A stretch of DNA of 10,409 nucleotides, taken from NCBI GenBank assembly GCA_016193065.1, contig JACPSX010000238.1:1-10409 (forward strand), in the 5' to 3' direction. Below the pieces are notes generated by a model. That model had not been told where the DNA came from and did no database searches. It saw only the letters and a program-made list of their open reading frames with translations. This document shows positions 2,740 through 9,308 of the stretch, one piece after another; position 1 is the stretch's first letter; each line of letters opens with the position of its first letter. Source of the stretch: Candidatus Tectimicrobiota bacterium (GTDB lineage: Bacteria > JACPSX01). The position numbers and the translations under genes are program-made.

Positions 2740-4151
2740 TCTTCTTCCCTCCGCCACTCTTCCTCAATTTGCGCGATGCGCTCTCTAACCCGCGCCGGAG
2801 CCGTTCCGCCGGGAAGGTTCTTGCTGGCGACGGAATTGTGGACTTCCAGGACCGCCAGGACATCCTCCTCGAAGGCCGGCGAAAAGGAGCGCAGTGTGGC
2901 CAGGCCCAAGGCTCCCAGCTCCACGTTCCGGCGGGCGGCCTCTGCCACGGCTTTCCCCACGATCTGATGGGCCTCCCGGAAAGGGAGCCCCTTGCGGACC
3001 AGGTAATCGGCCACCTCGGTGGCCGTCAAGAAGCCCTGGCGGGCAGCCTGCAGGAGACGCGCGGCATCAATCCGCAGGCCTGCCACGGCCGGGGTCATGA
3101 TCTCCAGGCAACCCTTCACCGTGTCGACCGCCTCGAAGAGAGGCTCCTTGTCCTCCTGCAGGTCGCGGTTGTAGGACAGGGGCAGCCCCTTGAGAATCGT
3201 GAGGAGCGCCATCAGGGCTCCGAAAACCCGCCCCGCTTTCCCCCGCACCAGCTCGGGGACATCCGGGTTGCGCTTCTGCGGCATGATGCTGCTCCCAGTG
3301 CAGAAGCTTTCGGGAAGCTCCACAAACCCAAACTCGGACGAGGACCACAACACGAGTTCCTCGCCAAGACGGCTCAAGTGCACCATGATCGTTGCAGCCG
3401 CAGACAAGAACTCCACCACAAAGTCGCGATCCGAGACGCTGTCCAGACTATTACTGGACACCGCTTCGAAACCCAAACTGCGGGCCACCATCTCCCGGTC
3501 CAGGGGAAAGGAAGAACCAGCCAGGGCTCCGGCTCCCAGGGGGAGAACATTGACCCGGGTACGGCAGTCCTTCAGACGCCTGCGATCCCTCTCCGCCATA
3601 TCGTAGTAGGCCAGGAAGTGATGGGCCACGACAACGGGCTGGGCCCGCTGCAAGTGGGTGTAACCGGGCATGACGGCGTCGCTGGTCTCCCGGGCCCGGC
3701 CCACCAGGGCTTTCTGAAAACCGCGCAGCAAGGAGACGATCTGGTCAATCTCGTCGCGCAGGTACAACCGGAGATCCAGCGCGATCTGGTCGTTGCGGCT
3801 GCGGGCCGTGTGCAGTTTCCCGGCGGCGGGACCTATTTTTTCCAGGAGCCGTTGTTCAATGGTTGTGTGAATGTCCTCCAGGGAAGGATCGGGAACAAAG
3901 CGGCCCTCCCGGATCTCGCGATCCATCTCGTCGCGGATTTCCTCCAAGCCGGCCACGATGGAGTCGGCATCTTTGGCGGAAATGATCCTGCACTGTCCGA
4001 GCATGCGGCAGTGGGCAATGCTGCCCGCAATATCGTGACGGTAGAGGCGCCAGTCGTAGGGAATCGAGGCGGTGAAAATCTCCACCCGTCGATCCGTGCG
4101 CTGCTGGAACCGGCCTCCCCAGAGTTTGTTCGCAGATGGCTTGGCAGTCAT
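2736..4151 (-). CDS. argH: argininosuccinate lyase
   Basis: ArgH splits argininosuccinate to arginine and fumarate, the last step of arginine synthesis. At 471 residues it has the normal length for the fumarase/aspartase superfamily. It carries WGGRF near the N-terminus (11-15), HTARSRND (114-121), the catalytic histidine region YTHLQRAQP (164-172, His166) and the superfamily signature GSSIMPQKRNPD (286-297, with catalytic Ser287). The C-terminal VASKNLPGGTAP is also typical. The ATG at 4151 lacks a clear Shine-Dalgarno. It lies 19 nt after the cpoB-like stop, so coupling to that gene is likely. Its 3' end overlaps the small lipoprotein gene by 4 nt. No argG or argF is visible in the window. 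Confidence 0.98.
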   Translation of the reverse strand: MTAKPSANKLWGGRFQQRTDRRVEIFTASIPYDWRLYRHDIAGSIAHCRMLGQCRIISAKDADSIVAGLEEIRDEMDREIREGRFVPDPSLEDIHTTIEQRLLEKIGPAAGKLHTARSRNDQIALDLRLYLRDEIDQIVSLLRGFQKALVGRARETSDAVMPGYTHLQRAQPVVVAHHFLAYYDMAERDRRRLKDCRTRVNVLPLGAGALAGSSFPLDREMVARSLGFEAVSSNSLDSVSDRDFVVEFLSAAATIMVHLSRLGEELVLWSSSEFGFVELPESFCTGSSIMPQKRNPDVPELVRGKAGRVFGALMALLTILKGLPLSYNRDLQEDKEPLFEAVDTVKGCLEIMTPAVAGLRIDAARLLQAARQGFLTATEVADYLVRKGLPFREAHQIVGKAVAEAARRNVELGALGLATLRSFSPAFEEDVLAVLEVHNSVASKNLPGGTAPARVRERIAQIEEEWRREED

Positions 4152-5137: not shown

Positions 5138-5533
5138 TTATTTCTTTGCAGGCTTCTCAGCCTTCTCAGCCTTCTTTGCTACTTTCTTGACTGCCTTGGC
5201 GGGAGCCAGAGACTTTGCTTTGCCATCGGAGACCGTCACGCTTACGTTATCGCCCTCCTTGGCCGTGATCTTACCCGTGACCTCAAATGTCTTGTCGCCG
5301 GCATCTGTGGTCACAGTCACCTTCTGTCCCTCGATCTTGGCCACCTTCCCCGCTACCCTCTCGCCCTTTGCAGCGGCCTTGGCGGGCTTCTCGGCCTTCG
5401 CAGCCGGGGCCTTCTCCATGGCCTTCTCGGCCTTGGCAGGCTTCTCGGCCTTTTCGGCCGCCATGGAAATTCCCGAGAAGACTACAAACACGAACAACGC
5501 CATCAGAATTGCCACCACGCGGTTGCCCTTCAT
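5138..5533 (-). CDS. small exported Ala/Lys/Glu/Pro-rich protein with a beta-strand domain
   Basis: The 131-residue product starts with a signal peptide (Lys2 and Arg5, hydrophobic core 6-22, likely cut after SMA or SMAA near residues 25-26). It then has an AEKAEKPAK-type repetitive segment (26-56), a compact strand-rich part (58-106, GKVAKIEGQKVTVTTDAGDK and following) that resembles small OB/beta-barrel domains such as DUF5666, and a second Lys/Ala-rich tail ending in KKAEKAEKPAKK. I do not recognise a named family. A periplasmic or wall-associated, highly basic protein is the fair description. The start at 5533 is preferred because the strong AAGGAGGAGGTGA lies 8-11 nt upstream; a GTG at 5545 would lie inside that site. 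The gene is monocistronic, with promoter and terminator both visible. Confidence 0.85.
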   Translation of the reverse strand: MKGNRVVAILMALFVFVVFSGISMAAEKAEKPAKAEKAMEKAPAAKAEKPAKAAAKGERVAGKVAKIEGQKVTVTTDAGDKTFEVTGKITAKEGDNVSVTVSDGKAKSLAPAKAVKKVAKKAEKAEKPAKK

Positions 5534-5541
5534 CTTCTCTA

Positions 5542-5554
5542 TCACCTCCTCCTT
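5542..5554 (-). promoter_or_regulatory. very strong Shine-Dalgarno of the small exported protein
   Basis: AAGGAGGAGGTGA matches the end of 16S rRNA almost fully. It contains the in-frame GTG at 5545 and so argues for the ATG at 5533 as the start. It also suggests high expression. Confidence 0.8.
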
Positions 5555-5772: not shown

Positions 5773-5972
5773 ATTAACCCCGATCCGACAAAAATAATCA
5801 AACCCTATGCGATTCTGGGCTGCATGGTGCAAAGGTTGCCGACATATTGACTGTAGGTTCATAAACACACTAAACGTGAGTTGTTAATTCATGGTACAAA
5901 CAGATCTTCTCCGCGGTCCGACGCTTATCAGCGATGGTTTCTTGGGCTGATGAATGTCGGATCGGGGTTAAT
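5773..5972. mobile_element. MITE-like element with 18-bp perfect terminal inverted repeats
   Basis: ATTAACCCCGATCCGACA (5773-5790) recurs exactly inverted at 5955-5972, so the two ends bound 200 bp. The repeats may extend inward imperfectly (ATCA..CCC on both sides). If the outer TTAA on each side (5774-5777, 5968-5971) is a duplicated target, the element proper is 5778-5967 with 13-bp ends. A TA duplication as made by IS630/Tc1-type elements would also fit. The inside is AT-richer than the neighbouring genes, has no gene, and holds a degenerate third copy of the repeat at 5911-5923. The alternative is a structured RNA closed by an 18-bp helix. The repeat itself is certain; the mobile reading is inference. 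Confidence 0.55.
5911..5967 (+). repeat. long imperfect hairpin at the right end of the inverted-repeat block
   Basis: Bases 5911-5932 pair with 5946-5967 across a 13-base loop. There are two mismatches (5913/5965 and 5924/5954) and a few G-U pairs in 22 positions. The 3' arm is the right terminal repeat, so this hairpin competes with the long-range pairing to 5778-5790. Confidence 0.65.
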
Positions 5973-6061: not shown

Positions 6062-6093
6062 GGCACCCCCACGCACAGGAAGGTGGGGGTGCC
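6062..6093. terminator. GC-rich hairpin, likely terminator of amt (possibly bidirectional)
   Basis: GGCACCCCCAC (6062-6072) pairs perfectly with GTGGGGGTGCC (6083-6093) over 11 bp, with a 10-base loop. It lies 78 nt past the amt stop. T-runs are short on both strands: CTTTGA on the minus side and TCTTTCT on the plus side. It may therefore serve transcripts from either direction. Confidence 0.65.
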
Positions 6094-6171
6094 TCTTTCT
6101 GTAGATGTCGTCACAGGGTCGGCATGCGGTTGCGATGATTGAGGCAGACGCGTGCAATTCTTCTGCCCCCG

Positions 6172-7494
6172 TTAGAAGTTGTAACCGCTCTCCTCATGCT
6201 GAGAGAGATCGAGTCCCATCAGCTCTTCCTCTTCCGAGGTTCGGACTCCAAAAAGGGCATGAACGATTTTGTATAGAACGTAGGTGCCAACCGCGGCATA
6301 CACATAGGTCGCCAACACTCCGAGAAATTGGATCCCGAACTGAGCCGCATTACCGAAAAAGAGACCGTCGGCCCCGGCAGAGTTCACTGCTTTTTGCGCC
6401 AGCAGCCCTGTCGCGAGGGCACCCCAGGTGCCGCCCACTCCGTGGACGCTGAAGACATCCAGCGAATCATCGAGCCGTGTACGTGCCCGCACGATGACCG
6501 CCACACCGCACAGAATCCCCGCTACCAGACCAATGATGATGGAGCCCACGGGGCTCACAAACCCCGCCGCCGGCGTGATGGCCACCAATCCCGCCACCGC
6601 ACCGCTGGCTGCGCCCAGCACCGTGGGCTTTCCCCGCCCGATCCAATCGACCAGAACCCAGCCGATGACCGCAGCCGCCGTTGCCGTGTTCGTGTTCACG
6701 AACGCGGTAGTCGCCAGAGCCCCCGAGCCCAGCGCGCTGCCCGCATTGAAACCGAACCAGCCAAACCAGAGAAGGGAAGCCCCCAATACCGTCAAGGGCA
6801 GACTGTGGGGGGGCATGGGCTCCTGCTTATAGCCCTTGCGGGGCCCCATGAGCAGAGCCGTTACAAAACCCGCCACCCCGGCGTTGATGTGAACGACGGT
6901 TCCGCCGGCAAAATCCAGAGCCCCCAGCTTACGGAGCCAGCCATCGATCCCCCAGACCCAGTGGGCGATCGGATCGTAGACCAAGGTCGCCCACAGGAGC
7001 GAGAACAGGACGAAAGGCCCGAAGCGGATGCGCTCGGCAAACGCCCCGGTAATCAGGGCCGGGGTGATGACGGCAAACATCCCCTGGTAAATCATGAACA
7101 GTTGGTGGGGAATTGTGGCGGCATAGTCCGGGTAGGGCTCAAGGCCCACCCCGCCCAGACCGAACCAGGACAGGCTGCCGATGATTCCCCCTTGGTCGGG
7201 CCCAAAGGCAAGAGAATATCCCCACAGGACCCACTGCACGCTGATCAAGGCCACCATGATGAAGCTGTGCATGATGGTCCCCATCACATTTTTCCGCCGC
7301 ACCATGCCCGCATAGAAAAACGCCAAGCCCGGAGTCATGAGCATCACCAGAGCAGTTGAAACAAGCATCCACGCCGTGTCACCCGGATCAATTTTGGGGA
7401 CTGGGACCGGCTGCTGGGCGAAGGCCGGAAACGCCATGGGGCCCAGCACGATTCCCGCCGCCACTCCTGCCAACAACCATCTGCGCATTCCCAT
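6172..7494 (-). CDS. amt: AmtB/Mep-type ammonium transporter
   Basis: The 440-residue membrane protein moves ammonium across the inner membrane as part of nitrogen scavenging. It opens with a cleavable signal peptide (ending near AFAQ, residue 27), as in E. coli AmtB, followed by about eleven hydrophobic helices. The twin pore histidines are seen in GGTVVHINAG (His202) and FSVHGVGGTWG (His351). The Phe-gate region QGMFAVITPALITGAFAERI (137-156) and the AHWVWG motif (177-182) are present. The C-terminal tail, rich in Glu and ending GLDLSQHEESGYNF, matches the segment that in the family is blocked by GlnK. The ATG at 7494 has GGGAGGAG eight bases upstream; the frame stays open 60 codons further but lacks any support. 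No glnK/glnB is adjacent. A sigma-54 promoter candidate lies upstream. Confidence 0.97.
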   Translation of the reverse strand: MGMRRWLLAGVAAGIVLGPMAFPAFAQQPVPVPKIDPGDTAWMLVSTALVMLMTPGLAFFYAGMVRRKNVMGTIMHSFIMVALISVQWVLWGYSLAFGPDQGGIIGSLSWFGLGGVGLEPYPDYAATIPHQLFMIYQGMFAVITPALITGAFAERIRFGPFVLFSLLWATLVYDPIAHWVWGIDGWLRKLGALDFAGGTVVHINAGVAGFVTALLMGPRKGYKQEPMPPHSLPLTVLGASLLWFGWFGFNAGSALGSGALATTAFVNTNTATAAAVIGWVLVDWIGRGKPTVLGAASGAVAGLVAITPAAGFVSPVGSIIIGLVAGILCGVAVIVRARTRLDDSLDVFSVHGVGGTWGALATGLLAQKAVNSAGADGLFFGNAAQFGIQFLGVLATYVYAAVGTYVLYKIVHALFGVRTSEEEELMGLDLSQHEESGYNF

Positions 7495-7502
7495 ACCCGA
7501 TT

Positions 7503-7510
7503 CTCCTCCC
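7503..7510 (-). promoter_or_regulatory. ribosome binding site that fixes the amt start
   Basis: GGGAGGAG on the minus strand lies eight bases before the ATG at 7494, directly ahead of the signal peptide. It rules out the extended reading frame reaching 7674. Confidence 0.8.
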
Positions 7511-7615
7511 AGATCGATTTCTCCAAAAGAAATGCATTTTCTGTATTGGGTCCCTAGGATTTGCAGACCCCAAGCCCTTCGATGCCGAGCCTTTCCTGGC
7601 ATGCTTTGGGCGGGG

Positions 7616-7631
7616 TGCAAAATCTTTGCCT
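7616..7631 (-). promoter_or_regulatory. sigma-54 (RpoN) promoter candidate for amt
   Basis: On the minus strand AGGCAAAGATTTTGCA has the invariant GG and GC exactly ten bases apart, plus GGCA and TTGCA as in the consensus TGGCACG-N4-TTGCA. Transcription would start near 7605, a leader of about 110 nt. RpoN/NtrC control of amt genes is well established in Proteobacteria. I saw no clear pair of NtrC sites. Confidence 0.55.
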
Positions 7632-7793
7632 TTCCCGCCCCCGGGAGAGATCCTTGCTTTTCAGGAGCTTTCACAGAACCCTTGGATGGACTGGAGAGCC
7701 AGATGGCTAATATTTAGGCAAATCAAGACTGCGCGTGCGCAAAAAACAGACAGCTTTCCGGAAAGAGCAGAGAGGGGAAGATTTCCCTGGAAT

Positions 7794-7853: not shown

Positions 7854-9308
7854 ATGAACCGACGCATCCAGGCCGGCCAATTTTACGACTACGAACGCTG
7901 TAAGCACAGGGTCTACCTCGACGTCCATGGAGACTCCAACGAGAAAGGCGGCGAGTCCGCTTTCCTGCGGCTTCTCTGGGAGCGCGGCATCCAGCACGAA
8001 GCCCGGGTGATCTCCAGGCTCTCTTCGCAACGGCAGATTGCCCCCATAGATGCCTCCTCTGAGAAAGAAGCATTTGCCCAAACCCTTGATTGGATGGTCC
8101 GCGGGGCAGACCTCATCTACCAGGGGGTCCTGCTGACGGAGGGGGGGATTGGGCGTCCCGACCTCCTCGAAAAAGCCGCAGGTCCATCCAAATGGGGGGA
8201 CTACCATTACGTTCCCATTGACATCAAGTCAGGAGGGGGATTTGAAAATCCTCAGACCCGAGAGCGGGTCAAGAAAGAATACGCGCACCAGGTGATCTTC
8301 TATCTGGACCTCCTGGAGGAAATCCAGGGCTACCGCCCGCTGGTGGGCAAGGTCATCAACATCGAGGGAGAGGAAATTGTCTTCCCGGCCTCCGCTTACG
8401 AGGAGACCTACTCCGCCAGCCGGAAGGACATTGAAGAGATCGTGGGCGGCGGGAAGTCCTACGAGCCGGTCCTGGGAGGCAAGTGCAAGCTCTGCCCCTG
8501 GCTCCAACACTGCAGCACCTGGATCAAGGAGCACGACGACCTGAGCCAGATCTACTGGCTTGGAGAAGGGAAGTACGACTTCCACGCGCGCGGGATCCGC
8601 ACCGTGGAGGACATGCGGCGGATCCATATCGCAAATTTCATGCGCCCTGAAAACCGCATCCCGCGGGTCGCAGAGAAAACCCTCGCCGCTTACAAGAGGA
8701 GAGCTCGGGTTCTCAAGGAGGGCAAGCCCCTGTTTCACGGCCCCATCACGTTTCCCAGCCGCTCCCTGGAAATCTTCTTCGACATCGAGGACGACCCGAC
8801 CCAGGGCATCGTCTACCTCTACGGACTTTGGGAGCGCCCCCGGGGAGAGATCCCGCGCTTCCGTTACTTTCTGGCCGAAAAACCTCAAGACCAGCAGGCG
8901 GCCTTTGCAGCTCTCATGGAATACCTGTCCCGCCTCGATGACTTCGTCATCTACCACTACGGCCCTCACGAACTCACGACGCTCAAGAAGCTCGGCCAGA
9001 CCTCGGGCAACCACAAACCGGTTCTGGAAAAATTCCATCGCTCCGCCGTGGACATCTTCCGGGTCATCGAGAAGCACACGGACTGGCCCCTTTTCTCCTA
9101 CGGCCTGAAGGACATTGCCAAGTTCCTGGGCTTCCGCTGGAGCGTTGAGGACGCCTCGGGAGCCGCCAACTCTATCGCCTGGTACGCGGAATATCTCAAG
9201 GATCCTCAGAAGAACCGCGACTTCCTGGAGCGCATCGTGCAATACAACCGCGAGGATTGCGAATCCCTGGCCCTGGTCCGGGACCGGCTCGCCGGCGGGA
9301 TCCAGTAA
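7854..9308 (+). CDS. TM0106-family nuclease: Fe-S PD-(D/E)XK domain fused to RNase H-like domain
   Basis: The 484-residue protein has two nuclease domains. The N-terminal one (about 1-225) is RecB/Cas4-like: Cys16 in YERCKHR, Glu49, Asp103 in GRPDLLE, the DIK of VPIDIKSG (Asp123-Lys125) and QxxxY (Gln146, Tyr150), closed by CKLCPWLQHC. Cys16, 211, 214 and 220 form the four-cysteine iron-sulfur pattern of Cas4 and AddB. A middle part (233-280) resembles a helix-hairpin-helix. The C-terminal RNase H-like domain (about 305-484) has FDIE (Asp310, Glu312), VIYHYGPHE (365-373) and YNREDC (Asp468), as in DEDD exonucleases. This matches the TM0106 'RecB-like putative nuclease' family, whose role is not established. 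The ATG at 7854 fits the family N-terminus; an ATG at 7824 adds ten residues. It diverges from amt, with no cas or helicase genes beside it. Confidence 0.9.
   Translation: MNRRIQAGQFYDYERCKHRVYLDVHGDSNEKGGESAFLRLLWERGIQHEARVISRLSSQRQIAPIDASSEKEAFAQTLDWMVRGADLIYQGVLLTEGGIGRPDLLEKAAGPSKWGDYHYVPIDIKSGGGFENPQTRERVKKEYAHQVIFYLDLLEEIQGYRPLVGKVINIEGEEIVFPASAYEETYSASRKDIEEIVGGGKSYEPVLGGKCKLCPWLQHCSTWIKEHDDLSQIYWLGEGKYDFHARGIRTVEDMRRIHIANFMRPENRIPRVAEKTLAAYKRRARVLKEGKPLFHGPITFPSRSLEIFFDIEDDPTQGIVYLYGLWERPRGEIPRFRYFLAEKPQDQQAAFAALMEYLSRLDDFVIYHYGPHELTTLKKLGQTSGNHKPVLEKFHRSAVDIFRVIEKHTDWPLFSYGLKDIAKFLGFRWSVEDASGAANSIAWYAEYLKDPQKNRDFLERIVQYNREDCESLALVRDRLAGGIQ

Follow-up and report, generated by a model that had tools for sequence, protein, structure and literature searches.

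A probable MITE family with 4-bp target duplications in Candidatus Tectimicrobiota and other uncultured bacteria

Introduction

Prokaryotic MITEs have been reviewed, with the Correia elements, MITEAba12 and Nezha among them (PMC10969869). The usual MITE border is TA (PMC4133298). MITEAba12 makes 9-bp duplications and has a resident parent, ISAba12 (PMC6382973). Among larger elements that bear on the present case, IS1380 elements captured in Paracoccus and Pseudomonas were reported to have 5-bp duplications (PMC3281130, PMC4133298).

We examined a window of 10,409 nucleotides, the whole of contig JACPSX010000238.1 of a Candidatus Tectimicrobiota MAG (GCA_016193065.1). A 190-bp stretch in it resembles the prokaryotic MITEs in being short and non-coding, with terminal inverted repeats and a target duplication, and in belonging to a multicopy, mostly intergenic set. 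We consider it very probably a MITE, mobilised in trans by a DDE-type transposase and making 4-bp duplications at YNNR. The family is new although its kind is already known; what is notable is its spread across lineages and the enrichment of its insertions at stop codons. No published account of the family, or of a MITE with such ends, was found in a literature search that lay outside ISfinder and most subscription papers.

The element and its surroundings

An earlier sequence-only reading had described a gene-free, AT-rich block of 200 bp, bounded by a perfect 18-bp inverted pair that was very unlikely to have arisen by chance. The pair, ATTAACCCCGATCCGACA, is exact in the window sequence at 5773-5790 and 5955-5972; allowing up to 3 mismatches, its arm has no second match elsewhere in the window, and likewise none in 200 shuffles. 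Comparison with other copies divides the arm into three layers: an outer A/T pair, a TTAA target duplication and a 13-bp terminal repeat. The terminal repeat is limited to the inner 13 bp because other copies have just those bases in common, and the outermost A/T pair is taken as coincidence because they do not keep it. The TTAA is palindromic and so makes the apparent inverted repeat longer. Thus the inverted pair stands as described, while the element proper is 190 bp long with 13-bp ends (Table 1), and its AT-richness is mild only, at 47% GC. No long ORF spans it, as had been claimed, and a size of 190 bp without a transposase gene lies within the MITE range (about 30-300 bp).

Table 1. Features of the element in the window and the observations on which each rests.
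Feature	Position	Strand	Basis
Target-site duplication, left, 4 bp TTAA	5774-5777		Same TTAA on both sides; most other copies likewise flanked by 4-bp duplications
Non-autonomous element (MITE, very probable), 190 bp, 190-bp subfamily, ends CCGACA	5778-5967	+	Relatives in the same genome, B24D1T2 and two other MAGs
Terminal inverted repeat, left, CCCCGATCCGACA	5778-5790	+	No variation in its first eight bases across 28 aligned copies
Conserved central block around GTGAGTTGYTRATTCATG, short hairpin possible	5871-5893	+	Near-invariant in the alignment
Subterminal repeat GTCCGACGCTTATCAGC facing right end GATCCGACATTCATCAGC	5916-5932	+	Read from the sequence; 57-bp inner pair; partly kept in aligned copies
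Terminal inverted repeat, right, CCCCGATCCGACA on minus strand	5955-5967	-	Exact pair; other copies
Target-site duplication, right, 4 bp TTAA	5968-5971		Matches left TTAA

Among the 28 aligned copies, bases 1-8 of the element and most of its last eleven do not vary; the central block GTGAGTTGYTGATTCATG and the region adjoining the right end are also well kept. In the consensus fold, the hairpin of the central block is the sole noteworthy stem of the interior. The two ends mostly vary in step at position 12 (AAA/TTT in 24, ACA/TGT in 11, mixed in 5), a pattern expected if one transposase reads both ends, though it may have other causes. The subterminal repeat may be a second transposase-binding site.

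The element occupies a 626-bp gap between a small-protein gene (5138-5545, minus strand) and amtB (6172-7674, minus strand). A hairpin at 6065-6095, GGCACCCCCAC...GTGGGGGTGCC, lies just past the 3' end of amtB and is probably its terminator; the element is found beyond this hairpin. The small-protein gene encodes a Lys/Ala-rich predicted secreted protein whose start is signal-like and whose match to ExtJ, a protein of a selenite/tellurite reduction operon, lies below threshold. Elsewhere in the window, 7860-9308 (plus strand) encodes a putative TM0106-family RecB-like nuclease whose C-terminal domain is RNase H-like.

Copies in the same genome

Searching the 2.9-Mb MAG at the DNA level found, besides the window copy, six others, whole or fragmentary, with 74-85% identity. 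Three relatives look whole (C282 at 82% identity, C26 at 78% and C40 at 74%) and three are partial (C148, C153 and C97). At least 12 further elements have related ends around unrelated interiors, and an end search allowing one mismatch added a large number of inverted pairs whose CCCCGATCCGAAA ends are spaced by 96-190 bp. Three groups can be told apart: the 190-bp subfamily to which the window copy belongs, a GC-rich subfamily (C33, C215, C35, C182 and C235, with stretches reaching 93% identity), and a 96-190-bp set alike in ends only.

End pairs were counted in 744 kb of contigs picked for carrying ends, a non-random sample, with the reversed pattern as control. Twelve pairs had no more than one mismatch in total; 10 of them had an exact 4-bp duplication and one more matched at 3 of 4 bases. 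The reversed pattern gave zero pairs at that threshold in the same 744 kb.

Several loci deserve separate description. Members of the GC-rich subfamily have 66-69% GC, measure about 190-208 bp and have ends near CCCCAATCCGAA and interiors unlike the window copy; duplications of TTAA, TTAG or CTAA were seen in three of them. At C97 (L068:6420-6680) a left-end fragment lies between two direct repeats of ~75 bp (GGACAGCCAGAGTG...TTGGCCTTGTGTATC); these could be a second family of repeats or stem from duplication at a chimeric site. A long end pair in C51 (1,777 bp) was rejected as an element; it has no duplication, and it encloses an ORF that by eye is PpiC/SurA-like, and no transposase.

Copies in other genomes

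A scan of 84,980 species genomes, requiring both ends at MITE spacing, returned 50 stretches, of which about 36 are in a single MAG, JACZXR01 (Deltaproteobacteria isolate B24D1T2). Others are in MAGs labelled Deltaproteobacteria (two from groundwater), Verrucomicrobia, Acidobacteria, Nitrospirae and Methylomirabilota, the phylum labels being those of the records, with misbinning possible for single-copy cases. Exact 4-bp duplications flank 38 of the 50 loci. Five evident chance matches in GC-rich genomes (Steroidobacteraceae, Planctomycetota, Roseicyclus, Ensifer and Saccharomonospora) serve as an internal negative control of the scan, and none of the five has a duplication.

B24D1T2 contains 164 exact ends versus 0 for the reversed pattern. 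Its 34 full-length relatives share 58-99.5% mutual identity, with 44 pairs at 95% or above, and the presence of copies up to 99.5% identical argues for recent multiplication or movement there. The four full-length copies in the window's genome, at a mutual identity of only 71-82%, would therefore be older than those of B24D1T2. Besides B24D1T2, two MAGs have the 190-bp element as single copies, and its interior is common to the window's genome, B24D1T2, a Verrucomicrobia MAG and a groundwater Deltaproteobacteria MAG. Such a common interior suggests either horizontal spread or persistence over a very long time.

The element had no match in the plasmid and phage collections searched, and three of four pattern scans of viral contigs were empty. 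Twelve viral-contig matches of a 16-mer have no similarity to the family and were taken as chance.

Mobile element, structured RNA or REP-like repeat

Empty sites were sought by joining the flanks of an element with one copy of the duplication and comparing the product with the fetched DNA. The joined flanks (90 bp) of L137:128-316 equal L135:4623-4712 at 100% identity; for L212:810-924, the full 90 bp align with L153 at 95.6% identity. Each of the two insertions went into a further copy of the 190-bp element, so that filled and empty states are both seen. This shows that the family inserts with a 4-bp duplication, and we infer the same mode of insertion for the window copy. One further 190-bp copy (L113:6614-6803) is flanked by TTAG and CTAA, which are reverse complements and no duplication; recombination between two copies could have left these flanks.

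The main rival named beforehand was a structured non-coding RNA closed by the terminal helix, for example a 6S-like RNA, kept for its fold. A single-sequence fold of the element does beat shuffles on both strands (z about -4.4), interior blocks are kept across diverged copies, and the short central hairpin has one paired change, in two related copies. However, the good fold score is mostly the terminal repeat, and a single paired change, shared by two related copies, does not suffice to show that a fold is conserved; RNAalifold on the 28 copies put the covariation term near zero, at -0.27 of -21.39 kcal/mol. No match was found in an Rfam search up to E = 10, nor was a promoter-like site found inside the element. 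The copies are numerous, dispersed, non-syntenic and oriented both ways, and they come with target duplications and, in two cases, empty sites. We regard the RNA reading as very unlikely.

Dispersed palindromic repeats that are mostly intergenic and often adjoin gene ends, as the family copies are, also bring to mind protein-binding or nucleoid/terminator repeats (REP/BIME-like), spread by recombination or by RAYT enzymes and not by TIR/TSD transposition. REPs, however, do not have well-defined ends at constant spacing, 4-bp target duplications that match exactly, the same ends around unrelated interiors, or empty sites with a single target, and to this alternative we give almost no weight.

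The sequence-only reading had favoured a MITE, and had looked to dispersed copies and to empty sites with a single target as its proof. Dispersed copies with the same ends and exact duplications now bear it out (six others in the genome and dozens more elsewhere), as do the two empty sites inside other family copies. It had offered TTAA or TA as the target: TTAA is correct for the window copy, and TA gives way to a 4-bp YNNR duplication for the family.

Target choice and stop codons

Targets were compared in 73 elements selected for exact duplication. The first base is Y and the last is R in all 73, giving a consensus of YNNR, mostly YTRR. There are 16 distinct target types, TTAA (23) and CTAA/TTAG (21) being the most frequent, followed by TTGA/TCAA (11) and CTGA/TCAG (5). 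On the stored strand, TTGA, CTGA and TGGA outnumber their reverse complements by 15 to 3, a skew that is unexpected under random orientation and maybe due to chance.

For 20 of the 73 the duplication overlaps a stop codon that closes an open frame 120 codons long or more; these are reading frames rather than established genes. A control that applied the same rule to identical tetramers at other positions of these loci gave 6.5% (binomial p = 3e-8). Survival is the simplest explanation: stop-codon sites would be over-represented because, within coding sequence, only insertion at the stop codon spares the protein, and selection is probably the cause of the enrichment.

We propose the following mechanism for the MITE. 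The element itself encodes no protein. Acting in trans, a DDE-type transposase would recognise the 13-bp ends (5'-CCCCGATCYGAMA), and possibly the subterminal repeats too, excise or copy the element, and join it to a 4-bp staggered cut. Cut sites would be YNNR, mostly YTRR (commonest TTAA, CTAA/TTAG and TTGA), and the 4 bp would become duplicated. Stop codons are contained in YNNR/YTRR sites, and an insertion at a gene end would recreate the stop and leave the protein intact.

A bolder version, which we think unlikely, has the family moving between distant lineages with a specialisation in stop codons: the transposase would prefer YTRR (which contains TAA, TGA and TAG), and the duplication would rebuild the stop. 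If there is preference for the site itself, and not survivors alone, harmlessness would be built in, and the transposase could serve as a useful bacterial piggyBac-like tool. In any case the enrichment offers a specific and testable explanation of how a small element can increase in number while leaving genes unbroken.

Candidate parent transposases

Transposases of PF13701, PF01609 and PF13843 were sought in eight genomes, and the surroundings of matches were checked for CCCCGATC ends. No autonomous element with the family ends was found in the window's genome and seven others, which are draft MAGs of the kind that often lose multicopy ISs. Extending unpaired exact ends by several kb also gave no autonomous copy.

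An IS1380-type transposase is our best guess for the parent, held at a little below an even chance, with the balance going to IS1634-, IS5- or IS701-like or other types. It is preferred because IS1380 elements in two of the same genomes have CCC tips and YTAR duplications. The single IS1380 transposase of the window's genome, in C242, belongs to an element with ends CTAA/CCCGGATTATTCAC and CTAG/CCTGCATTATTCA (flank/end) and tip CCCGGAT; that of B24D1T2 has CTAG/CCCGCATTTCTCACAA at both ends and tip CCCGCAT. A similar scan of an IS1380 relative on a Microvirga plasmid gave TTAG at both ends. The C242 element (L109:302-3824) is itself interrupted near its right end by another insertion, which has 21-bp perfect inverted ends (1950-1970 and 3760-3780) and a 420-aa transposase-like ORF.

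The MITE reading may also be right with a parent of IS1634, IS5 or IS701 type, a tentative option that we take seriously and do not favour. An IS1634-family element of B24D1T2, with ends CCCGAGTTT and CCCCAGTTT, has CCC tips and CTAG flanks, and IS5-group and IS701 elements also make 4-bp YTAR duplications. However, the IS1634 tips fit less well (CCCGAGT versus CCCCGAT), and a captured IS1634 element gave 6-bp duplications in experiment (PMC3281130). IS5-group ends usually start with G.

Relation to known elements

A poorly studied class thereby gains a well-supported MITE family whose target is not TA and whose hosts are deep-branching uncultured bacteria, whose mobile DNA is hardly described. 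Unlike the Correia elements, MITEAba12 and Nezha, the family has other ends, another target (4-bp YNNR) and no parent found. IS1380-family elements (transposase NF033539/PF13701) of the same genomes resemble the MITE in their CCC tips and 4-bp YTAR flanks, and differ in carrying a transposase and in end sequence, which past the first seven bases is unlike CCCCGATCYGAMA. The 5-bp duplications reported for captured members from elsewhere (PMC3281130, PMC4133298) also set them apart and count against an IS1380 parent; the Microvirga relative shares the CCC or CC tip.

Membership of the piggyBac superfamily was rejected, there being 16 target types among 73 elements versus a strict TTAA. No PF13843 transposase was found in the eight genomes, a weak negative since the control genomes were silent too. 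The likeness to eukaryotic piggyBac, whose tip starts CCC, lies in the 4-bp target with TTAA the commonest and in the CCC tips; the window's family differs in being bacterial and in using targets beyond strict TTAA.
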